Part shown: positions 5,968 to 63,800 of the stretch, one piece after another
Layout: each line of letters begins with the position of its first letter
Numbering within the stretch: the first letter of the stretch is position 1
NCBI RefSeq assembly: GCF_000003605.2
Contig: NW_003158236.1
Coordinates: 63,008-127,007, forward strand
Direction: 5' to 3'
From: Saccoglossus kowalevskii
Taxonomy: Eukaryota > Hemichordata > Enteropneusta > Harrimaniidae
Length of the DNA stretch: 64,000 nt
Made by a program: the position numbers and the translations under genes
The notes under the pieces: model-generated
What the model was told of the DNA's origin: nothing
Database searches by the model: none
The model's input: the letters and a program-made list of their open reading frames with translations, nothing else

Positions 5968-6169
<202 letters not shown>

Positions 6170-6548
6170 TTGGAAAGTACATCAGTAATGTCACTAAAAC
6201 TACAAGACAATAAAAAAGTAACAGTCAAATTAACAGTAAAAGATAAAAAGTGTACACAAGTTACAAAATTACATTTACAAATTAAGAGATTCACATACAA
6301 AAATACATTACAATACATCTATAATTATACTATGGGGTACAACCGTCTTATTTTAATGCAATGTTTAAAATGATTGTGGCTATGCAAAGCCAACAAGAGA
6401 TGTTACTGTCTTATAATCTATTTGTTTTTTTTATAAATTTGGCCAATGTAATATTCATTGCAATGATTTTATGTCATTTATCAGTATAATTTTGTTCGCT
6501 TCTGTTAAATTTGTGAAATCATTTATTTGCTTCCAGACGTTTTGGAAG

Positions 6549-6700
6549 CCTGCCTGTTTCGATTTCGAGGTCGTGGTTACCTAAACGGAACCGAGAGATT
6601 GACTCTCGTAGATAAATATTGTTGAATAATTTTCCATTTCAAACATTTTCTGCGGAATTGTCTATATGCCCTCAGTTTGTTTTTCCCGGGTTTGTTATTT
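6549..6700 (-). pseudogene. LINE C-terminal motif remnants (out of frame with the previous piece)
   Basis: Two short matches to the LINE protein C-terminus lie in different minus-strand frames. KPGKNKLRAYRQFRR resembles the KLRTY-x-x-FK segment and SRFRLGNHDLEIETGR resembles the R-x-R-x-GNH-x-LEIE-x-GR segment. A stop follows LEANK near 6530, about where the element's protein usually ends, leading to a 3' UTR of about 350 bases before the tail. Confidence 0.65.
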
Positions 6701-6817
6701 TTAATGTTATCGGAATTACGTTTTTTTCCAATGAGAGATGGATATTTTTCCTACGTTTTTTGTCAATTATCGTTTAGTTTTGTTATTGTAACGTCTGTGT
6801 CTATTAATTGCGTTTTA

Positions 6818-7112
6818 TTAATCATGTCTACTTGGGAAGTTATAAGCACAATACCATTTACTATTTAGGTTGCTATTTAATAACTCTGCTTCCTTCACAA
6901 ATTTGTTTAGTGTGTTCATTACTCGGTTATAGTATTTAATCATTTGTCTTTTGATACAAATATCTATTGGAAATTGAGCAAAGTCTTCATAAATTGATAT
7001 TATGGGAGTGTTTGTCCTCACTCCTAGGATGAATCGTAAAGTGTGGAGCATCTTGTCAGATTTGTAAGAGCTCTCGTCTCCCCAAATATCACTACCGCAT
7101 ACTAGTACTAGT
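6818..7112 (-). pseudogene. Fragment of LINE reverse-transcriptase C-terminal region
   Basis: On the minus strand the frame opens at the insertion boundary with LVLVCGSDIWG and continues with LRFILGVRTNT, then YEDFAQFPIDICIKRQMIKYYNRVM. In non-LTR retrotransposons the same order is seen as YGSEIWG, then F-x-K-x-ILGV-x-x-x-T, then E-x-G-x-x-P-L-x-I, then a basic helix. The frame breaks after about 98 codons. Translation in the other minus frames picks up more of the protein further along: KPGKNKLRAYRQFRR at about 6648-6692 and SRFRLGNHDLEIETGR at 6553-6600, the latter a classic C-terminal LINE motif. Frameshifts between these pieces show long decay. It makes no functional protein. The frame's own first ATG lies inside the inserted element and is not a real start. 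Confidence 0.75.
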
Positions 7113-7291
7113 GCTGTAATAATTACCGACATGTACCATTAACCGTTAATGTAACACAAATTAACCGATATTGTAATAAAAACCAATAATGTAACAAATC
7201 GCAACTGATAATGTAACACAAAATAAGTGATAATGTAATATATTTTTTGAACAACCGTTAATGCAACAAGACGGTAACCGATAATGTAATA
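7113..7291 (-). repeat. Left inverted array of TTACATTATCGGTT-like units
   Basis: Degenerate copies read on the minus strand start near 7290, 7266, 7239, 7217, 7195, 7177 and 7155, with a worn one at the edge. Units differ mainly in the CGG core and are separated by short linkers such as TTTTGTG. Confidence 0.8.
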
Positions 7292-7402
7292 ACATATTTG
7301 CAAGTTTTTTACTGTTTAGAGACGGACGGGACCAACAAATCTGATTTTTTTGCCCTTCTTCTCCGCGAAGCAGCAACTGATTTAGTGCTGTAGGCGAGTC
7401 AA

Positions 7403-8231
7403 TATTAGCGTTCGCGCACAGCTCGTTAGCACGGGGGGGGGGGGGGGCAGATACCTTAGCCTGTGTTAAGGAAACGTGCGTGAACACTCAGCACGGGCTA
7501 CGAATCGCCAAGTCCAGATGACATCTGGTCCGTTTTAAGACCCGCTCGAGATACGCTAAGCGCCCAAAACGCCATTGCATTCTATGTTCATTTGGATGAT
7601 TTACTATTACATTAATAACTATTCATTTCGGTATGTCATTTCCGGCATGACAATCAACGCGAGCACATCAAGAGATGTTGTTCCCAAGAGAAAATGAACC
7701 GACGATGAGACTCCGTGCTACTGAATTTGCTTTGGTATTGTTTTATCACCGTTGAACTTGTACCTTTCTGGTCACTGTACTGAGTAATCATAGTTGAAAT
7801 GACTGAAGATTTGTTATATTCTTAAAGGGCGGTAGTCGCGAGATATATTGCTGGTCTCATATAAACAAAGATGGCGACTTTGACCGTTGCGCAGATCAAC
7901 GAGTACAACTTGAGACGTTTCCAAACTTGAATTAGATAATTTTATGTGATTGGAAGGTAAGGAGTCGTCGGTCGTATTCAGTGCATGTCGGGCCCAGGTC
8001 AAACCTCATACTTGTAATTTCCATTTGAAGAGCGCATTAGATTGTGGGAAAATCAATGTTTATCAACACAAACGTCGTACATGCGCAACGCGACGACCAC
8101 TGCGTTTTAACAAGTGTTTTGAATTCCTCATTAGCTCGTTTTAACCCCTGATTCCTCTCGTGCGTGAACGAAATTGGGTCTATTCGATATGCAGAAATAT
8201 AAGATTAGCTTAAATCTTAGCCCGTACTACG
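7403..8231. mobile_element. Dispersed repeat, copy A (inside the array-ended element)
   Basis: This segment aligns with 16587-17073 in the same orientation. The best shared block is 7568-7672 against 16734-16837 (ends TTCCGGCATGACAATCAACG and CGAGCACATCAAG). Weaker similarity follows to 7826/16990, and both copies close with AGATTAGCTTAAATCTTAGC. Copies of the imperfect palindrome TTAGCCCGTGCTAA (or TTAGCACGGGCTAA) occur near both ends: 7426-7435 partial, 7456-7469 diverged, about 7490-7500 and 8218-8231. Copy A carries about 330 extra bases (7827-8157) and a run of 15 G (7433-7447). No transposase is seen. Non-autonomous DNA transposon is an inference. Confidence 0.6.
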
Positions 8232-8267
8232 TGTAGCGTGGACATTATTACTGTTTTTAGGGTGGAC

Positions 8268-8309
8268 GGACGTTTCGGCCAGGACGTTTCAGCCCCGGAT
8301 ATTTCGGCC
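8268..8309 (+). repeat. Three degenerate GGACGTTTCGGCC units
   Basis: Units at 8268-8280, 8282-8294 and 8297-8309 vary as GGACGTTTCGGCC, GGACGTTTCAGCC and GGATATTTCGGCC. This motif is a familiar short dispersed tandem in marine invertebrate genomes, by recall. Confidence 0.7.
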
Positions 8310-9968
8310 AAGGGTGGAAAGCGAAAATATTTGATTACAGTGGCGTTTTATTTTGGCGTGTTTGGCTATCATAGAGACGAACACCTGTACTATAGTATCG
8401 ATATTCACATGTACTCGTCGCTATAAATGTCTGAACATTTCCTTCCACCATGTTGACAATCCAAAACGATAGCTTCAACTTATTTCCTGTTTTGTAACAC
8501 GGTGTATGCGCATAGCCCCATATGGTCCGTCTGAGAATCGAGAAGTGTTAAGTTAGTATACATCCAACAACTATCTCATCGGAAAAGATCGATCTTGGGT
8601 CGATATTTAGAAAAGAATCCATAGGGAAAAATTTAAACTATGCAATTTAACGCGTTAAGTTATTATCCAATCGCAGCTGTGAATTCACATAGCACGAATC
8701 GATTTATTATCTTTACAATTGCTACGCAGTAGTGGCATTTATGTCGTCAGTTATTTAGTGATGTTCCTCATTTCGTAGCATGCCCGTAGCCAGGAATTTG
8801 CTTGCGGGGTTCTTTTGAAAATTAAACTTTCTGAAATGGCATTTCCTGCTTTTTTGAGAGGATTTCAAAGGACACTCACATAACTGCTTTAGTTTCTGTG
8901 CGTGCCGTGATCACTTCCTTCTCCGAACGTTTTACTGGCTTTGATACCACATTCAATGTGTATTCGACCACCGACAAGAAAACTGAATGCTTTACAACGC
9001 TCTTGTATTTGAAATGCTTATCCTCCTAGAAATGGGTGAAATCACATCATGCCCAGCGGCAGGCTTTATATGACATGAGAGTATCGGCAAAGGGTATTTT
9101 CGTAACCTGTATTCAATTGTGTTTATTTTCGTAATGATGTAATTTAAAGCGAAAGGGTCGCCACCTGCGCACGCGCGGGAATTGAGTCCCAAGCGACGAT
9201 AACAACACACGCAAAAAACGCAAAGACTCATGGGTAGACGCTTGTTTGTAAACATTGACACGCTATGGTCATCTGACGCATGTGCAGGTGACGCCGTACT
9301 TGCAAGGTGCGAGTTATAATTGGTAAATGAATATAAATGCGCGTATGAGTTAAAACCACATGTAAATACATAAAAATTCGCTATTATATTAGTAAATATA
9401 TTTACACTCATTAATTAAATCTAAATATATGTATTATATTATATATATAACTGCAGGAATATAATATAATGTAGGATATAAAACATGGGTGTGGTCGAAA
9501 CTATTTTCGGAGTGGCGAATGGTGGCCGACTCCCGCCCACCGTATATTTCATACATATTACAATTATCTTATTGACATTATCTGTTGTTGGAAGTCACGG
9601 GATCCTCTGAAATACTGATACTAAAGGTCATATTGCAGAAACTATCAGTAAATAAAAATAATACATTTATAAACAAATACAACAACCTAGCAATATCACG
9701 AGCACCTCTGTTTGTGCGTATCTTGGCGAGTGTACGCGGAAGTTCAACATACAAACACTAGTTTGCATGTGATTTATAAATGTTATTATAAATGATAGAC
9801 ATCATTTTGTCTGACGTATACGTGTCGCATTATTTTTTTGTAGTTCAACTATTCTATTGTTTTACTAGAATAAATGTGAAAAAGTTGTCTCTTCTAGTTC
9901 CCTCCTATTGATAATTCCACAAACATCTCAAGAATGATCTCGTATCATAAAAAAATAATCGGAAAAAA

Positions 9969-10187
9969 TACATTACATTGTCAGTTATTTTGTGTCACAT
10001 TATCGGTTGAAAAATCAATCTAATACATTATCGGTTATTTTGTGTTACATTATCGGTTGCCATTTTTGTTACATTATTGGTTGCGAGTTGTTACATTATC
10101 GGGTTTTATTACAATATCGGTTAATTTGTGTTACATTATCGGTTAATAATACAATATCAGAAATTTATTACATTATCGGGTCCAACA
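9969..10187 (+). repeat. Right inverted array of TTACATTATCGGTT-like units
   Basis: About ten units appear on the plus strand with spacing of 15-25 bases. The most faithful copies (TTACATTATCGGTTG or TTACATTATCGGTTA) are at about 10044 and 10131. The open frame through them (LHYRL/YIIG repeats) is a translation of the array, not a gene. Confidence 0.8.
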
Positions 10188-10193
10188 ACTAGT

Positions 10194-10271
10194 CTAATTA
10201 ATTTATCGAAGTGGAACGACATTGTCTTTAAATGCAGATTAGATTTATCGTCAACTTTTTCTTTCACAAAC
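10194..10271 (-). pseudogene. Upstream part of the split LINE coding region
   Basis: On the minus strand this reads KEKVDDKSNLHLKTMSFHF then DKLIRLV, ending at the ACTAGT that flanks the inserted element. Joining it to 7112 across one ACTAGT gives HFDKLIRLVLVCGSDIWG, which has the spacing of the family consensus (LFDKLI-x-PVLLYGSEIWG). Upstream it runs into the perfect 45-bp tandem repeat at 10272-10460, which has either expanded inside the relic or replaced part of it. Confidence 0.65.
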
Positions 10272-10460
10272 ATGGAGACATTGTGTGAACCTCCTATACC
10301 TGCCATATACTCAGTGATGGAGACATTGTGTGAACCTCCTATACCTGCCATATACTCAGTGATGGAGACATTGTGTGAACCTCCTATACCTGCCATATAC
10401 TCAGTGATGGAGACATTGTGTGAACCTCCTATACCTGCCATATACTCAGTGATGGAGACA
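10272..10460 (+). repeat. Perfect 45-bp tandem repeat, 4.2 copies
   Basis: The unit begins ATGGAGACATTGTGTGAACC and ends CATATACTCAGTG. Four copies are identical, followed by nine bases of a fifth. Because 45 is a multiple of three, both strands stay open and give 15-residue peptide repeats. Identity of all copies points to recent expansion within an otherwise decayed LINE relic. Confidence 0.9.
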
Positions 10461-10560
10461 GGTCAAAGTATAGCATCGATGGAAATGTACAACTGTGCCT
10501 TAATGCGTTGTAATGTCTTAACTCTAAATAGTTTATCGTCTAAACTCTGTCTTAAACTCT

Positions 10561-13500
10561 GTCTTCATCAAGTTACAAAGTGATGTTCGGTAATTGCGGA
10601 AAAAGTACAGTTCTCATTATATCGTAATTAGGTCGTTATAAGCCACGCTTCGTCGATAATTATAATCTATGTAGCAGTCAATGTGATATTTATCTTTTCA
10701 GACGATAAATCGTGGCAGTTGATTCAATGTTTTTTAACATAGCCACATTAAGGTGTCCATTAAGTATTTTAAAAGAACCCAGAGATTGGTTAATATTCAA
10801 AATCCAGTTACAAAGTTCTCGATGCTTTATTACGAGTCCGACTCTCATATAAAGATAATCTTACTTATTATTTGTTGTTGTTGCTGATGAGCGTAAACCA
10901 CAAATAGTTGATGGTAGTTGACGAACATCATTTTCGTAAATGACCATGCCCATATTTTAAAAAAACCACGCTCACTATCTTTAAAACCACATTCAAATTG
11001 TGACTCGATGTTCAATTACCGAAAATCCAGTTACGAGCAACACAAATTTGCGTTGTTGTATAACGTCCACATTTAGTAACTTGAACAGTTAACCTAATTT
11101 TGAGTTAATAACTGGGAATTTAATATCAATGATGAATTACCATAAGCGGACGTAACTCTAAATTAAAATTCGAATTAAAAAATGAGAACGTTAAACAACA
11201 CCAACAATCTGTGTTGCCCTTTATTCTAGGTTCGAAGCCCGAGCAATGTATCATAGCTATTCTCAGTGCACTGACTGTCTCTATTGGCAGTAGAAGAGAG
11301 AAGCTACTTGTACAAAGCATATATCTCGTCAAGATTTGAAGTAGAGCTGACGTCTATCACTTGCAATAACAATATTTGTCGTTCAGGGAGTTCGAATAAC
11401 TGGTATAGGATGCTCCAATTACATTCATATTTCTATTCTCACGGTCTAACGGAATCGAATGCGACGCAGACACTTTTTCCGTGCGTTGTTTTACAGTTCA
11501 CGTAAAGGTCACGACATTTTTTATCGGCTGCTGTCCTTTTATAGGTGCAATATTTTGTTTATAATATATTGTTTGATTCCGCCTGTTGATGAATACTTCG
11601 AGAGTATTAATCCATGAGATATAGTGTCGCATCATTTTTTATTATTTCCTTTGAAACCAGATGCCCGCACCATACGTGCATTGTTAAGCATACTGCAAAC
11701 TGAGGTGATGCAGACGCTCAATCATAAACTAACAATGTCATTTTGCTGATCAAGGGTGCTTGTGGTCTTCAGGAAACTATTCCCGTAACAATTTTAGAAA
11801 GTGTTTATTTCTTAACATGCGGTTTGGATACCTTGCGCAATCAAAGGAATATCTTGATGAAAGTAGATACAAAGTTATAATAACATCACGTTCCAGGTGT
11901 GACGCGGTATTTTGCGCTGTTCAATTTTCTGTTTGATTACTAGTTCTTGCTCAACTGTGGCATGTCTGCATGAACATATGCGAAGTAGACAAAATATACA
12001 GTTGTCGACCAGAAGTCATAAACAGTTGTAAAAACAACGTTAAAACACGCCGTGGTCGAGCTATTAACATGCGTAGTGATTACAAATAAATAGCTCAGAC
12101 CGCACAGTGAAAATATTTTGCGCATTTAGGATTAGAGGCATCACTAGCTCCATTTATAAACAAAAATGTATTATGATATATCATAAACAATCGCTGCACA
12201 AGCGTATCGACAACAAAAAAATGCCATACAGTGTGCTACAAAATAATTTAGTTTACAATAAATCATATTTTAATTTGGTCTAAATATATATATATACAAT
12301 ATAAAACAACAGCAGCATAAAAGCTTGGCTATATTACATCCCTAAATGGTGAGCAGAATACGAAAACGGAATTTATGATACGTTTCTAAATTATGTCTTT
12401 TGAATGCAAAGGCAGTCACGTTATCATCAAAACAGATTTGAAGTCATCAAGAATCACAGAACAGAACATATTATGGTTTGACGAGTGCGCATTGAAATTC
12501 GCAGAACATAATGTAGCATGGTTTGATTAGTGCGCATTGATATGCAAAGACAACACTCATGGGTAGTCGGGATCATCGCTTTTAACGATAGCCTTCTTAT
12601 GTGGAGAGTTCCTTTGGGAAAACTGTGCTCCACTTCATGACAGTCTGATCTATTTATTCTTCAGCAGTTGCACATTAGAATAACTGTCTTCTAAATTACT
12701 TAAATTGTACTTGGACTCTCTCCTCAATATTCAGTAGAAATAACGTTACACCAACTAATCTTGAAACATTTTCATTTGCATGATTTCACGTAATGTCGAA
12801 ATTTAATATTTGTCTCTCAAACTCAACATTTATTCATTTATTTATGAATTTCCTTACTTATTTTTTAAAGATACACACACATGTAGGCATCCTACCCATG
12901 GTGAAAATGCCATTTATATATTAGACGTAATATCGCGTGTTAGATGGTCTTGGGAGAACGCGCTTACCGGATTAAAAACAAAAGCAAACATATTTAACAT
13001 ATATCAAATAAAACAGACGTATTTTTTCAACTGCATAAATGAATGGAATTAAATTCCTCGAAACGTATATAAGATATACATTGTATTTAAAACACTCTAA
13101 TTTAAATGCACCTGAGCTAAGTCACCAATCAAAGGGAATATGTTTTACTCCTTGAATGAATATTACTCCTCACACAAAATATCCAAGTTACAATAGGTGT
13201 ATTTAAAAGATATTTCAGACACATCAATTTGAATAGTGAATCTTATTCCCAAGTCTCAAATTATGTCTTAAAATCGCGTCCCTATGTTAATTTATAAAAT
13301 AAAAATAGCCCACATTCATGATTGTGTAGTTGTTATGAACTACCTAGTTTGAATAATTTAAAACGAGAGAGCCTCGTGAACAAACGTGTGTGAAGTTAGG
13401 TGGGTAGTTTCCATGGAGGTGAGAATCACCTTCGAAACATACATCCGGGGTTTTACGTGACGACATTTCCTGTGATTGTTATAAACAAAACGAGTTCAGT

Positions 13501-14540: not shown

Positions 14541-15645
14541 TTGCAGGCTGCAGTGTTCTTGAACGGTACTGCAAAACGCTTAGCTTCAGAATGCAGGCTA
14601 CATAATGCTTGAACAGCACTGCAACACGTGTGGCTCCGGTTTGTAGGCTGCAGTGTACTTGAACGGCACTGTAACACGCTCAGCTCTGGGATGCAGGCTG
14701 CAGAGTACTCGAACGGCACTGTAACACGCGCAGCTCTGGGATGCAGGCTGCAGAGTACTCGAACGGCACTGTAACACGCGCAGCTCTGGGATACAGGCTG
14801 CAGTGTACTTGAACGGCACTGTAACACGCGCAGCTCTGGGATGCAGGCTGCAGTGTACTTGAACGGCACTGTAACACGCGCAGCTCTGTATTGCAGGCTG
14901 CAGTGTACTTGAACGGCAGTGTAACACGCGCAGCTCTGGGATGCAGGCTGCAGTGTACTTGAACGGCACTGTAACACGCTCAGCTCTGTATTGCAGGCTG
15001 CAGTGTACTTGAACGGCACTGTAACACGCGCAGCTCTGTATTACAGGCTGCAGTGTACTTGAACGGCACTGCAACACGCGCAGCTCTGGGATGCAGGCTG
15101 CAGTGTACTTGAACGGCACTGTAACACGCTGAACTCTGTTTTGCAGGCTGCAGAGTACTTGAACGGCACTGTAACACTCACAGCTCTGGGATGCAGGCTG
15201 CAGTGTACTTGAACGGCACTGTAACACTCACAGCTCTGGAATGTAGGCTGCAGAGTACTTGAACGGCACTGTAACACGCGCAGCTCTGGAATGCAGGCAG
15301 CAGTGTACTTGAACGGCACTGTAACACGCGCAGCTCTGTATTGCAGGCTGCAGTGTACAGTGTACTTGAACGGCACTGTAACACGCGCAGCTCTGGGATG
15401 CAGGCTGCAGAGTACTCGAACGGCACTGTAACACGCGCAGCTCTGGGATGCAGGCTGCAGTGTACTTGAACGGCACTGTAACACGCGCAGCTCTGGGATG
15501 CAGGCTGCAGTGTACTTGAACGGCACTGTAACACGCGCAGCTCTGGAATGCAGGCTGCAGTGTACTTGAACGGCACTGTAACACTCACAGCTCTGTATTG
15601 CAGGCTGCAGTGTACTTGAAACATACTGTAACCGGCTCAGCTCTG
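14541..15645 (+). repeat. 50-bp satellite-like tandem array, about 22 copies
   Basis: The core unit contains GCAGGCTGCAG, then GTACTTGAACGGCACTGTAA, then CACGCGCAGCTCTG. Each good unit carries a PstI-type CTGCAG. The central copies are nearly identical and the first two and last copies are strongly diverged. One unit near 15351-15360 has a 10-bp slip (TGTACAG repeated). Since 50 is not a multiple of three, several minus-strand frames stay open (Cys/Ser/Gln-rich repeats of 118 to 210 residues). These are translations of the array and I leave them out as genes. Confidence 0.95.
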
Positions 15646-16586
15646 GCTTTGAATGACATATCCTGTTAAACAATTTTGAATGCTTAATACGTAATTACGT
15701 CCTATTAATTTTGAACCGTATGCAATATTTTGAAGACAATAGTGGAGACCTCCTTTTAACCTACTGCCGTTACATCACGACTTACATATGTCATACTTCA
15801 AGACAGACACCAAATAGGTGTTGAGTAGTTTTTCACCGACGTGAACGTATTTTACTATTCAAACCGCTATAATTACGTTTCCATACAGTGACATTTTCAT
15901 TGCACCCTGAACGGAAGGAACAGACGATCCAATGTAATATGACATTTCCGCATTTCCATGGCAACCGCTTTAACACACTACTGAAACATATATTTTCACC
16001 AGTGCATATAACATTACGTTTTATATCTTTCCTTCCTTGCTGACATACTTTAAGAGTATGTTATTTTTTACATTATGTTAACTCAATATCTAATGGCAAT
16101 ATATATCACGTGCAAGTCATGTGACGACGTATTTCTCGCAGAGACTTTCGGCCTTTTTTAAAATCAACTCAATATATAACAATTTTAGATACTAGTAGTT
16201 CTGAAAATGACACCTACAAACTTTGAAAGAAACCCGATCCTAGATGCCATATCGGGCCAGTGTATCAATGGCATGAGGTTATTTTTCTGACAATGACAAG
16301 AAAACTATGTAACATTTTAATTTTAAACGGGGTTTCAAGCTGTTCTGACACTGAACAATCTACGAGATGTAAACTGTTGTGATTTTATTTTCACGTGAAA
16401 ATATAACTTCAATGGAGTTCGCTTCGGAAATCTTATTAAAATAGAATAGAATTTAGTGTGAACTAAAACAAATATTATATAATTATTATTCACAACGTTA
16501 GCAGACGATAGCGACAACTCAAACTGCCTTACTTACATTTTCTGAGATTTCTTTTGCATCTCATGTTCGTTTGTTATCATTGCTTT

Positions 16587-17073
16587 TACTAGCGTTCACG
16601 GGCAGCTCCTTAACACAGGCCAATAATGTAAAATGTCTTAGCCCGTGCTAAATAACGCTAAGTACGTATTGAATCTTACCCGTTTTTTATTTTAATTAGC
16701 ACGGGCTAATAAAGTGGCTCTGGTTAAGCTTCCAAAACGCCATCGTCAATGTTCATTTGGACGATTTATTATTATATTCATAACTATTCATATCGGTATG
16801 CCTTTTCCGGCATGACAATCAACGCGAGCACATCAAGTGCAATGTGCTACTTCCTGTTATTCAGCAATTGACACCTCTGAATTTGCTTTGCCGTTGTTTT
16901 AAAACTGTAGAACTAACATGTACACCTTCCTTGTTACTGTACTGAGTAATTATAGTTAAAAGGATTGGTTATTTTTGTATATTCTTAACAAGTGTGTGCG
17001 TTCCTTAGCCCGTGCTAACTACTGGTCTATCCGATAAAGATATGAGATTAGCTTAAATCTTAGCCCGTACCTA
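16587..17073. mobile_element. Dispersed repeat, copy B
   Basis: This copy is shorter than copy A because it lacks the 330-base interior block. It carries three perfect palindrome units: TTAGCCCGTGCTAA at 16638-16651, TTAGCACGGGCTAA at 16696-16709 and TTAGCCCGTGCTAA at 17005-17018, plus a diverged one at 17060-17073. It is not flanked by the TTACATTATCGG arrays, so the family moves or spreads independently of the element that contains copy A, or was copied out of it. Confidence 0.6.
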
Positions 17074-17920
17074 GTGTATCTTCTACTGTTATTTCAACTC
17101 TACACTAGTTATATATGCGTCTGTAGCTATTCTAGTTTCTGTTTACTTGTTTGTTCGAATCGAGTGTCTTCTCGAATAGTTGCTGTAAAATACTTTATTG
17201 AAAAAAAAATCACTGAATTGATTTTTGGGGTGTTTTGTATGGAGTTGAATGTAAAATATTGAAACAACGGTATATTCGCTGGATTTTGTTTTCATTGAAT
17301 CATTCCTTCAACGAAAATAGCGACAATTTATTTCAAGCGAGTATAAAATATTCCACAGTAATCACAATACGTAAATCCTAGAGAAAGCATTTGAAACACA
17401 CGCTATTGATTCACGGATGTACGTATATTCCGAACTATACAAATATGTGTACGGTACTGGAGAATACAACAATGCTAGAATATCAGCTGTTTGGTCTGAT
17501 AGCTGTAATATGAGGCACATTTTATTGGCTTAAATTTAAGTATTTGGAAAATATACATCACGTTTTTAGAAAATGAAAAGTTGAATCAGGATACGTTGAG
17601 GGGTGATCAGATCGAATAGTGGCTACTTGAAGTAATTTGTTTAAACATACTTAACACGTTGAGTGTGACGTGGCATCTGCCATTCTACGAAGTCAACTAA
17701 TAGACCATTTGCCGGTTTCTAGTGCTCGTGATAATCTGTCTGATTACGTCACCATCCTGCAGTCTCGTTCGATGACGATTCATAACGCGCGTGATAACCA
17801 GTGTTTGTATGCAAAAACAAATGCACATAAAGACTACAGTTTTCCCACAATGCAACAGCATTTCAAATAAACATGTAATTTGCAAATATGATATGATGTA
17901 ATAGTTACATATTTTAAATA

Positions 17921-58530: not shown

Positions 58531-59510
58531 ACTTTCAAAGATTATCATCTTGTAAGATAACGGAGAAAATATAAAAAACGAGCCGCAAAAAAAAAATCTC
58601 ACAAAAAGTTAATATATTAATACCAACATAAATAAATAAATAAATGAATGAACTTCTGTTACCTATTCTTCTAAGCTAATATAACTACAACAATAAACCA
58701 TCGTATTCTCACTTATTCATTGCAAGATTTCTGAAAACTTATAGGAGAATACAATGGTGTAATTGCGGTGAATGAATATTTCTCTGCTAATAATATACAG
58801 AAGAATACAGCACAATACATAAATAACTAATTCTTGACAAAAAACAATAAGATAATTTCAAATTATTTAAATTCATGTGTTCTTAATCACGTTGTTTTGA
58901 ACAAAATACGTACAGCGACCAATTATGAAAATGACACCTAAATACAGTGTCAATGTTATCCAATTGGTTTATAGTGCAGTAATGAGCTAGGTCTAACATG
59001 TACGATGCAATTTCAGGTCAGTTTCATTCCGCGGCATTCTCTCATCTATAATTGTTGGCCACACTTAATTTTTTACAATACAGCACGTTTAAATTACGAC
59101 AGAAAATTTATGGTCATTGGATGGAATAATCGATCGCATCATCTGCCACATTTAAATGAACGGATGAGTACACATCTTAACTGCAAGCCAGTTAATCCCT
59201 TTTACCTTTAAATTGCCAGCAATTTTCCATCATGGATTATCTTTAAATGAGGTCCGTGACATTTATCTTACATGCAAAACAATACACACATGTTGATTGC
59301 AGGAAGAGAACAGATAATGGTATTGGGTTTTGTCAAAATATAGCATAATACATCACTTCTTTAATGGTCATCGTACATTGACATAAAGAAGTGTTTATAT
59401 GCCTAAATAGTTTGGATAAAGTATACACTGGTTTCTAAACAACATATTCCGTAGTTGGCAATTTGTTTGAACTTGATAATTCACAGGGAAAATATGCCGT
59501 ATCATTACCG

Positions 59511-59846
59511 TCATTATGGATGTATTTCATATGACGTCATTATGGATGTATTTTATATGACGTCATTATGGATGTATTTCATATGACTTCATTATGAATG
59601 TATTTCATATGCCATCATTATGGATGTATTTCATATGACGTCATTATGAATGTATTTCATATGACTTCATTATGGATGTATATCACATGACTTCATTATG
59701 GATGTATATCATATGACGTCATTATGGAAGTATTTCATATGACGTCATTATGGATGTATTTCATATGACTTCACTATGGATGTATATCATATGACTTCAT
59801 TATGAATGTATATCATATGACGTCATTATGGATGTATATCATTATG
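59511..59846 (+). repeat. 26-bp tandem array, about 13 units, six with a perfect CRE (TGACGTCA)
   Basis: The unit is CATTATGGATGTATTTCATA plus TGACGT. Perfect TGACGTCA palindromes span unit junctions at 59532, 59558, 59636, 59714, 59740 and 59818. Most other junctions read TGACTTCA. The array lies about 0.9 kb upstream of receptor exon 3. TGACGTCA is the consensus site of CREB/ATF bZIP factors; function here is inference. Confidence 0.9.
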
Positions 59847-60821: not shown

Positions 60822-63800
60822 GTTAGTGTCTTAGCCAAAATAACCCTGCAAGTAAATAACATTAACTTCAATCTACCAATGGATGGTTACCATAATAAGA
60901 GACGATTTCTGTTTTCTCTGCAATATTTGCAAATAATTGACCCATTACAATCTGTATGATTAAATGACGAAAATTACAGCGCTATTTACGCTTAATGTTT
61001 ACGGAAACGAATTGATGGGAAAGCGAGACTCAGCCCGGGGATACAATCAATGAATTGAGTTAGCTGATGAGAATTTATAACTCTTATCCAAACTAATTTT
61101 GTTTGAATTCCCGAATAGTTTTTAATCTAGACGGTACCAAAACTACAAACGGCATATTGGATCTCATTACGTCAGTCATACACCACAAATCAAATAAAAC
61201 AAATTGGAAATGTGTAGACATTCCATTCGATACTGGTAACTGAAATTTAAAAACTGTTCATGAAACAGTGTTTGGGTGATTTATTCCTCTAATCTTTAAG
61301 TTCCGATCTCGACTAGTCTCTAGCAGTATCGTCATCATGAAAACAAATCATAATGACAAACTGGTGGATTCATTTGATTGATGTTCAGAGACATACAATG
61401 ACTTAGTATCACAGAGCCACGTAATCTAAAATACAAAGTCTATGTTATTACGCAAAATATAATACGAATAGCTTATACCAAACTACATCGCGTAGAGTGA
61501 GTGTCAATCAAAATAGCAAACATAGCCCCACTTCAATGCATTGTTTGCTCAGTGTACACACACCGTTACAACGTGCATACACTACATGCCTACTGTAGCA
61601 CTAAACACTCATTGACTGCCTACTGTAGCACTAAACACTCATTGACTGCCTACTGTAGTACTAAAAACTCATTGACTGCCTACTGTAGCACTAAACACTC
61701 ATTGACTGCCTACTGTAGAACTAAATACACATTGCCTGCCTACTGGAGCACTAAACACTCATTGACTGCCTACTGTAGCACTAAACACTCATTGACTGCC
61801 TACTGTAGCACTAAACACTCATTGACTGCCTACTGTAGCACTAAACACTTATTGACTGCCTACTGTAGCACTAAACACTCATTGACTGCCTACTATAGTG
61901 CTAAACACTCATTGGCTGCTTACTGTAGCACTATACACTCATTTCCTGCCTACTGTAGCACTGTATTTTATTATGTTTCTTGTGATTTTTTTCCTTGGAG
62001 CCCAGACTTGGCGAACTTCTAATAAATCTGATTACGATGTAGCTTTATTGTCCCATATACAGTGCATATGATGTGTTGTTTAATTTGTATTTGTGAATGA
62101 GTGATAGTCTAACCCGGATTCCATATTCAGCTGCATGTGTTCGCATTCATGGGAGATTATATTATATAGAGTATAAGTCAATGTATGATTGTCTTGATGA
62201 AACGATTATAGTTTATGAGAATAAATGCATACTATATTACGCATGTTTACATCTGGCAGCAAAAGCAAATTAACCGACCCTTAACAACCGTATTAACGTA
62301 TTTTTTTCTCTTTACAAAAATGTGCGTCACCATTGAACACGTTCTATTGTTTTGTATGATCACATCAATAATTTAGCGAATGACAGGAAATGGAGTGTAA
62401 ACGTAAATGATCGCATAAATGTTATTTTTATAATACATTATTCTTATTTGCTGGTACTACGGTCTGTTATCTCTCATTAGAGATGCATAGTAATGAGACT
62501 ATTACCCAATAATATATAAGTACACATACTTGCAATGTAAAATGTAATATACATCACAAGTGGTGATTTAATTATGGTTATTCATGAAAAGCATACCCCA
62601 ATGGAGGAAAAGTTACGTCATTGTCTTATTTACCTACCTTTTCACTTGAATCAAAACTGACATGCGTTTTTATATTTGGAAGAGAAATAGCGTAAACTCA
62701 AGATATGCAAGATATGTGTACCCATAATATGTAATGTAACAAGGCAAATGACTAGCACTGTGAGCAGAGATATTTTAACATTGACGTGGAACGTCTTTAA
62801 TACATTAGACCAGGTATAATGTATTGATGTACTGAGAAAGATAAAAAAAAAAATTTCCGTATTACGTTTCAGACACGGATATTTATGTTTAGATAATTGT
62901 ATTTCCATGAAAGTAAATTAGTTTTTATTGAAATACAGCCTTCTACGGGTTGTGTGTAAGCCGGATTGCCACACGTATTAGAAATTACTAAAAAGGCACT
63001 TGTAGCACGCATCTTAGATCTTACACAATTATGTCACTGTGTGCTTAGTATGAATGGAGCATAATATTCAGAACACGAAGTGAAGACAGCACTTGATTTA
63101 ATCGGGATCTTTCAGATTTGAAGGTAATGCACAACTCAATTTTGTCAATTCGAAGATGTTTTGACTATCCAGCCCATTCAGATAGTGCATCATTTGATGA
63201 CGATTATTATTGTTTTAAAAGTATCACTCAAACTAGTATAATGGAGACTTGTGGTTTCGATGATTAGGCATAAATTTATTAATGATTGTGTTAAATGTTT
63301 AATTTTGCAAATGAGATCCCGATTCACGGAGAAAACCTATTGTTTACAAAACAAAATAATTAAACGCTTTTAAAATAATATCCAGTACATTCACAGTATG
63401 TAAGTGTAAATAATTACAGGAAAACGAACATACACATAACAACACGAAACACAGATCTTAGTGGTACGCACACTCGGCGTAATGCCTCGCCACTGATTGT
63501 GTCAAATTATGAATTGTATTATAACTTAACAGGTTTTGGTACCTCAATTTTTATTTACACATTTATTTAATGGAACATTTCCCTCGAATAAAATAGCAAA
63601 CATGTGTATTGCTTCATAAGAGTCCACATGTTTTACTAGTTAAATCTGTGTTCATCATAGATATGTGTAGCTGATAATATAATTAACTAAATGACAAATT
63701 AGAATATTGTTTGCTTAATTTCAAACTGTTTACACGAATATTACTGTGTTAAAGTCGTCGAATTATTCAGTTCAAGGCCACCCTTCTGATGATTGTCCTT

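Follow-up and report, generated by a model that had tools for sequence, protein, structure and literature searches.

A transposon nested within a LINE remnant of Saccoglossus kowalevskii, its insertion site read against empty relatives

Ginger2/Tdd elements, in the passages of PMC2836005 that describe them, possess 5' ends of the form TGTNR, terminal inverted repeats (TIRs) of 45-297 bp and lengths of 2.7-6.7 kb, with short non-autonomous forms occurring as well. The same passages give target-site duplications of 5 bp for TDD-4/5, and of 4 bp, in RTATAY targets, for metazoan Ginger2. IS3EU/GingerRoot elements, going by an excerpt of PMC10045372, make duplications of 6 bp, with GingerRoot ends occasionally being TG..CA. 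Galileo, a Foldback-like member of the P superfamily, is described in part of PMC3688188 as having long, internally repeated TIRs with secondary transposase-binding sites. The Tm1 Mutator/Foldback elements, in an extract of PMC3169594, combine composite TIRs of variable length with non-autonomous members, TE nesting and 9-bp duplications. Lastly, Dada elements make duplications of 6-7 bp, and Dada-U6 and Dada-U1, which are without TIRs, target small RNA genes (from a portion of PMC3706591).

The locus to be compared with these groups lies within a 64,000-nucleotide stretch of the S. kowalevskii genome (contig NW_003158236.1, positions 63,008 to 127,007), referred to here as the window, and all positions are those of the window unless noted. 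The inserted element occupies 7112..10187, i.e., 3,076 bp, or 3,075 bp should it begin instead at 7113, and no gene was detected within it. With a probability of about 93%, this is a DNA transposon without detected transposase that was inserted by cut-and-paste into an already existing, 5'-truncated LINE copy. It is, that is, a nested insertion of ordinary kind, whose right border is known to the base and whose left border to within one base. Three layers of TE are present (LINE, TIR transposon and TTAA MITE), with two insertion sites checked by empty relatives, all within one genome. Such nesting is biologically routine and here is unusually well resolved, and the family end that it supplies would let annotators locate an autonomous partner.

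The host LINE remnant and its empty relatives

The LINE remnant is read from the minus strand and is in two parts. The upstream part (MFVKEKVDDKSNLHLKTMSFHFDKLIR) is found at 10193..10273, with at least three non-self loci matching it from 10192/10196 to 10260/10266 at 78-85%. The downstream part (6172..7111) is seen in translation of the joined flanks, and parts of 6171-7112 match three other loci (L062, L063 and L064). It begins with LVLVCGSDIWG at 7079-7111, carries a IYLRESISRFRLGNHDLEIETGR motif at approximately 6549-6617 and reaches its C-terminal end, LAKFIKKTNRL followed by a stop, at 6411-6446, after which comes an apparent 3' UTR. A minus-strand simple repeat, (TTTG/TTTA)n with a period of 4 and 50.5 copies, at 5969..6171 would be, going by its position, the LINE's 3' tail. 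Joining 7112 to 10194 yields the reading frame FDKLIRLVLVCGSDIWG in a single minus-strand frame, with translation of the joined flanks starting MFVKEKVDDKSNLHLKTMSFHFDKLIRLVLVCGSDIWGDESS. An earlier, sequence-only reading had the upstream part ending at 10194 with FDKLIRLV. That detail has to be corrected as the R codon spans 10193-10195 and the last letters come from the duplicated repeat.

A reverse transcriptase domain (RVT_1) was not found by Pfam scan in the minus-strand LINE flanks, presumably because the LINE is 5'-truncated near 10273. Adjoining that apparent truncation, and in the LINE frame, are four identical 45-bp tandem repeats (10272-10460).

Scoring of the join employed as its reference the 17-mer FDKLVKPILLYGCEVWG, which we take to be a conserved LINE motif. 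This motif scores 56/97 on the join given a net deletion of 3081 bases, versus 29 for the best unjoined 17-mer (of 126,858 in the window). When 20 other in-frame net deletions between 3051 and 3111 are tried instead, the score is at most 41, and that score draws on residues of the insert. For FRTSNHRLPIETGRW, presumably a second LINE motif, the top match in the window is at 6590 on the minus strand, scoring 48 versus 23 for the runner-up. A degenerate pattern of the LINE motif had no occurrences in viral contigs, genome contigs or the window, and LINE motif strings were not found in literature text. The LINE piece itself gave eight pattern stretches in viral contigs, none of them confirmed, along with three matches in PDB that were not meaningful (best E 0.5).

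More direct is comparison with other copies of the LINE. Querying of the organism's own genome (572,110,611 bases in 4,830 contigs) with 10188-10800 returned, besides the window itself, at least three non-self LINE loci, which are the three loci named above. These and the window copy are 84-87% identical pairwise, and the dispersed relatives keep the same coding frame (e.g., NLHLKTMLSLFDKLIRPILVYGSE as translated from L062). All three listed loci align with the joined flank over the join (942/943), at query positions 919-1009, 383-1009 and 632-1015, and cross it at the length that had been predicted. Around the join L062 and L063 are ungapped, with L063 having a 4-base gap further to the left, and L064 carries two additional bases, which lie 11-12 bases leftward of the 12-base site considered next. 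The net insertion is 3081 bases, as given by three empty paralogues and independently of the motif scored above. Removal of the insert together with one ACTAGT thus restores the LINE as had been claimed, i.e., as an uninterrupted sequence in at least three paralogues (3/3 of those listed).

The 12-base site is ACTAGTACTAGT in the window copy, which is the target site that had been proposed, and is ACTAGTATTGGT in two of the paralogues and ACTAGTATTGAT in one, the paralogues differing in the second hexamer. With more of its context, the join reads TATACTAGTATTGGT followed by CTAATT in L062 and L064, TATACTAGTATTGAT followed by GCAATT in L063, and CATACTAGTACTAGT followed by CTAATT in the window copy. 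The hexamer ACTAGT is found in the window copy at 7101-7106, 7107-7112 and 10188-10193. Paralogues possess one ACTAGT, followed by ATTGGT (two paralogues) or ATTGAT (one). The ACTAGT at 7101..7106, being present in all three empty paralogues, therefore is LINE sequence, and the second ACTAGT is private to the window's LINE copy. Relative to ATTGGT, both of the copies flanking the insert share two private changes, and this sharing is what a duplication predicts.

Borders of the insert and length of the duplication

Within 7085-7134, and at an offset of 3081, the sole identity run of six is 7107-7112 versus 10188-10193. Runs of six or more within 18 nt at a fixed offset occur with a frequency of 0.0044 in random window pairs. 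At any offset, a 6-mer is shared by two 30-nt flanks with a frequency of 0.17, so the ACTAGT repeat by itself is weak evidence.

The right border is instead supplied by the transposon family. Matches to the right arm number 35 in the organism's own genome, with 32 outside of the window element and 15 of those extending to the final query base, 10187. The family end TGTTGGACCCGATAATG, given also as TGTTGGACCCGATAATGTAA, begins at 10187, and 15 of 20 fetched ends open with TGTT exactly at the base equivalent to 10187 (TGTTGGACCC and onward). Their fifth base is G in 14 and A in one, and the right end in the window is TGTTG. As to the remaining five, the end apparently is present with a base substituted in L065, L081 and L084, has decayed or been cut in L083, and is absent from L082. 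Among 16 ends, i.e., the 15 chosen for their TGTT start plus the window's right end, pairwise identity is 89.7% over the first 20 nt inside (the first four columns being 100% by selection) versus 28.6% over the 50 nt outside. The flanks thus are unrelated outside of this point, and the proposed right border at 10187 is borne out as the family's terminus. By eye, two different copies, L066 and L067, have the outer flank ATATTTTCACA in common, perhaps representing insertions into the same repeat.

At the left border the outermost approximately 12 nt are absent from the arm of the window copy, with the family end TGTTGGACCCGATAATGTAATAA shrunk to TGCTGTAATAA from 7112. The T at 7112 probably is the first base of the element. 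If it is the element's own, then the duplication is ACTAG, at 7107..7111 and 10188..10192, and the sixth matching base is coincidental. A perfect repeat at a junction, that is, may overstate a duplication by one base if the element's first base matches the target. A duplication of 5 bp, with the element at 7112-10187, is more likely than one of 6 bp.

The latter, with ACTAGT duplicated through to 7112 and 10193 and the element starting at 7113 with GC, is the less probable reading, though one to be given some weight: The perfect direct repeat at the join is 6 bp, and duplications of that length are made by IS3EU/GingerRoot, as the excerpt of PMC10045372 indicates, and by others. It requires, however, that terminal bases were lost precisely at the duplication, and the window copy when counted from 7112 retains the TG of the family's TGTT. 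Other members of the family bear upon this as well. Four other inverted pairs were found, constituting elements of 732, 3,049, 3,110 and 3,771 bp, and their 5-bp flanks agree at 4, 0, 3 and 3 of 5 positions, i.e., 10/20, given a mean of 1.25 per pair under mismatched pairing. For 6-bp flanks matches are 8/24 (mismatched-pairing mean, 2.08 per pair), for 4-bp flanks 5/16 (mean, 0.92 per pair), and for 9-bp flanks 10/36. The pair with no agreement is L067/L068, in which a duplication was not seen across its 5-bp flanks. These counts in four other pairs favor 5 bp weakly, the duplication being clean in the window copy only and decayed or absent in the four. The claim that both borders and a 6-bp duplication are fixed consequently stands for the right border; it does not for the left, where the end is eroded and 5 bp is the likelier length.

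The hexamer ACTAGT also is its own reverse complement, such that from the window copy alone direct and inverted copies are indistinguishable. The two copies could then represent the outermost parts of the inverted repeats, with no duplication and an element of 7107-10193. Removal of those 3087 bases, though, makes the LINE six bases shorter than its empty copies, which have 12 bases there, and ACTAGT is not carried outside of TGTTGG by other family members. Unless the paralogues are misaligned, these two results refute such a reading, which is the least probable of those considered here, and a duplication of ACTAG is retained in what follows.

The transposon, its family and its nested MITE

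The arms of the element are built from iterated units. The left arm (7112..7292, plus strand), whose outer end is eroded, consists of seven units of the core AACCGATAATGTAACA and the right arm (9963..10187, minus strand), with the family terminus intact, of nine, in both cases allowing up to four mismatches. Units are approximately 22 nt, with the core, of approximately 16 nt, recurring mostly every 18-28 nt. Allowing up to three mismatches, the core has 16 matches in the window, 15 of them within the arms, versus a mean of 1.73 and a maximum of 6 in shuffles. As inverted repeats, 7115-7238 and 10172-10045 are 85% identical, and the arms overall are 85-90% alike. Together with the multicopy family and the empty LINE relatives, these inverted arms uphold the basic claim of a transposon inside of a LINE.

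Pfam domains were not found in the insert (six frames, E up to 1). Nor was a transposase found by six-frame Pfam scans, with X at stops, of the window copy, L085, L086, L087 and L093, which are the five copies scanned, L088-L092 having been left out. Given this result for the scanned copies, transposase would have been supplied in trans. The insert had no match in a phage collection. Single exact 16-mers of the arm core occurred in 34 stretches of viral contigs (one stretch with two), and these are not taken as relatives. Arm and interior strings gave in the literature 11-mer matches only, under titles unrelated to transposons.

Sequence of the element's interior is found also in L085, L086, L091 and L093. 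Partner ends were not found for the single-arm copies L089-L092 within up to 3.5 kb fetched, L089 being partly masked. It might be supposed that unrelated DNA came by chance to be enclosed through two independent events, for instance by fold-back rearrangement or by separate insertion of the two arms. Of the interior, approximately 8695-9962 indeed is unmatched in L085-L093, the arms aside, and a reverse-transcriptase segment is carried instead by L085 and L086. Against this, the left arm and interior are continuous with L086 from 7115 to 7826 (82.6% over 763 columns), 8112-8316 matches L086 and 8322-8694 matches L093, and an empty site of exact length is simplest with one insertion. Two events thus are very improbable, and insertion of a single element is the reading kept here.

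Among scanned copies, RVT_1 is found in L085 (E 1.2e-12) and L086 (E 4.9e-8) only. The segment is at the same internal position in both, i.e., 1129-2470 in L085 and 1291-2490 in L086, as if a single LINE insertion or capture had later been moved with the TIRs. That the family is an undescribed, Ginger2-like TG..CA lineage with minisatellite-like arms, its TIRs mobilizing a captured LINE reverse-transcriptase segment, is a tentative suggestion, one that is rather more apt to be wrong than right.

The transposon has itself been inserted into. A 281-bp MITE-like sequence at 7826..8106 is bounded by TTAA at 7822-7825 and 8107-8110. A relative of the transposon's interior (7557-8235) that lacks arms is found elsewhere in the window, at 16725..17078, and is without this insert. 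Three empty relatives in fact resolve the MITE: the window's own, with one TTAA at 16985-16988, L085, with TTAA, and L086, with a changed TTAA. The end sequence of the MITE recurs at 253 in L037, where the stretch likewise is between TTAA copies. The sequence at 7826-8106 is, then, a TTAA-type MITE within a transposon within a LINE.

Other repeats are present as well. Inside of the transposon are a dispersed repeat (9144..9292), with a second copy at 7498-7643 of L037 (81%), and three near-copies of the 15-nt unit GGACGTTTCGGCC (8264-8312). Elsewhere in the window are a tandem repeat of 50 bp with 22 copies and 88% matches (14542-15646), shorter tandem arrays with units of 26 bp (59509-59842) and 30 bp (61587-61962), and a dispersed repeat, 17183-17360, with matches in L037, L053, L056, L058 and L060. 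The last is probably abundant, as those five sampled loci fall within 77,148 readable bases. Arm or LINE copies were not found in these 77,148 bases, out of 251,000 sampled from the organism's own genome, apart from one weak match to an arm over 26 nt (E 0.049). Scanned with Rfam and for tRNAs, the window yielded nothing.

Proposed history and comparison with described groups

The events leading to this arrangement may be envisaged as follows. Transposase from an autonomous relative would have acted in trans, binding the iterated, approximately 22-nt subterminal units. The TG..CA ends would then have been paired and joined to a staggered cut in ACTAG, with gap repair giving rise to the 5-bp duplication (or to one of 6 bp). 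Later, approximately 12 nt would have gone from the left end, the simplest path being a deletion from one TG dinucleotide to another together with one T-to-C change. Either before or after insertion of the transposon, a TTAA-specific MITE would have entered its interior.

TIRs, a multicopy fixed end, a duplication and no transposase in the scanned copies together are what characterize a non-autonomous TIR DNA transposon. Assignment to a described group is a separate matter. Against Dada are the long TIRs and the LINE target found here, as judged from the portion of PMC3706591 cited above. Ginger1 needs a 4-bp duplication of CCGG/CCGT, and the duplication here is ACTAG or ACTAGT. With IS3EU, the ends are TA..TA in the excerpt of PMC10045372 rather than TG..CA as here, and the duplication here is more likely of 5 bp.

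Likeness to Tm1, within the extract of PMC3169594, is in composite TIRs, non-autonomous members and nested TEs; the difference is in its duplications of 9 bp, a length at which flanks of the four other pairs match at 10/36 positions. Galileo is alike in that a model of binding to repeated TIRs is proposed here too: By analogy, the iterated arm units probably bind the trans-supplied transposase. Galileo nonetheless has TIRs exceeding 1 kb and a P-like transposase, at least as the cited part of PMC3688188 has it, and the likeness is one of description.

Ginger2/Tdd differs in that the passages of PMC2836005 describing it do not include iterated arm units such as those of approximately 22 nt seen here, and the target here, ACTAG within ATACTAGTACTAGTCTAATT, is not the RTATAY which they give for metazoan Ginger2. 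An integrase-like DDE transposase of the Ginger2/Tdd type was not found in the five scanned copies. As the RTATAY target is lacking and transposase was not found in those copies, the element is not filed here as Ginger2. Its TGTTG ends nevertheless fit the TGTNR of those passages, as do its TIRs and overall length, and its short duplication may fit as well. The window copy's own duplication matches the 5-bp length of TDD if the element starts at 7112, with other pairs matching at 10/20 positions for 5 bp and 5/16 for 4 bp. From its TG..CA ends, then, a Ginger2/Tdd-like affinity, although unproven, is the best lead.
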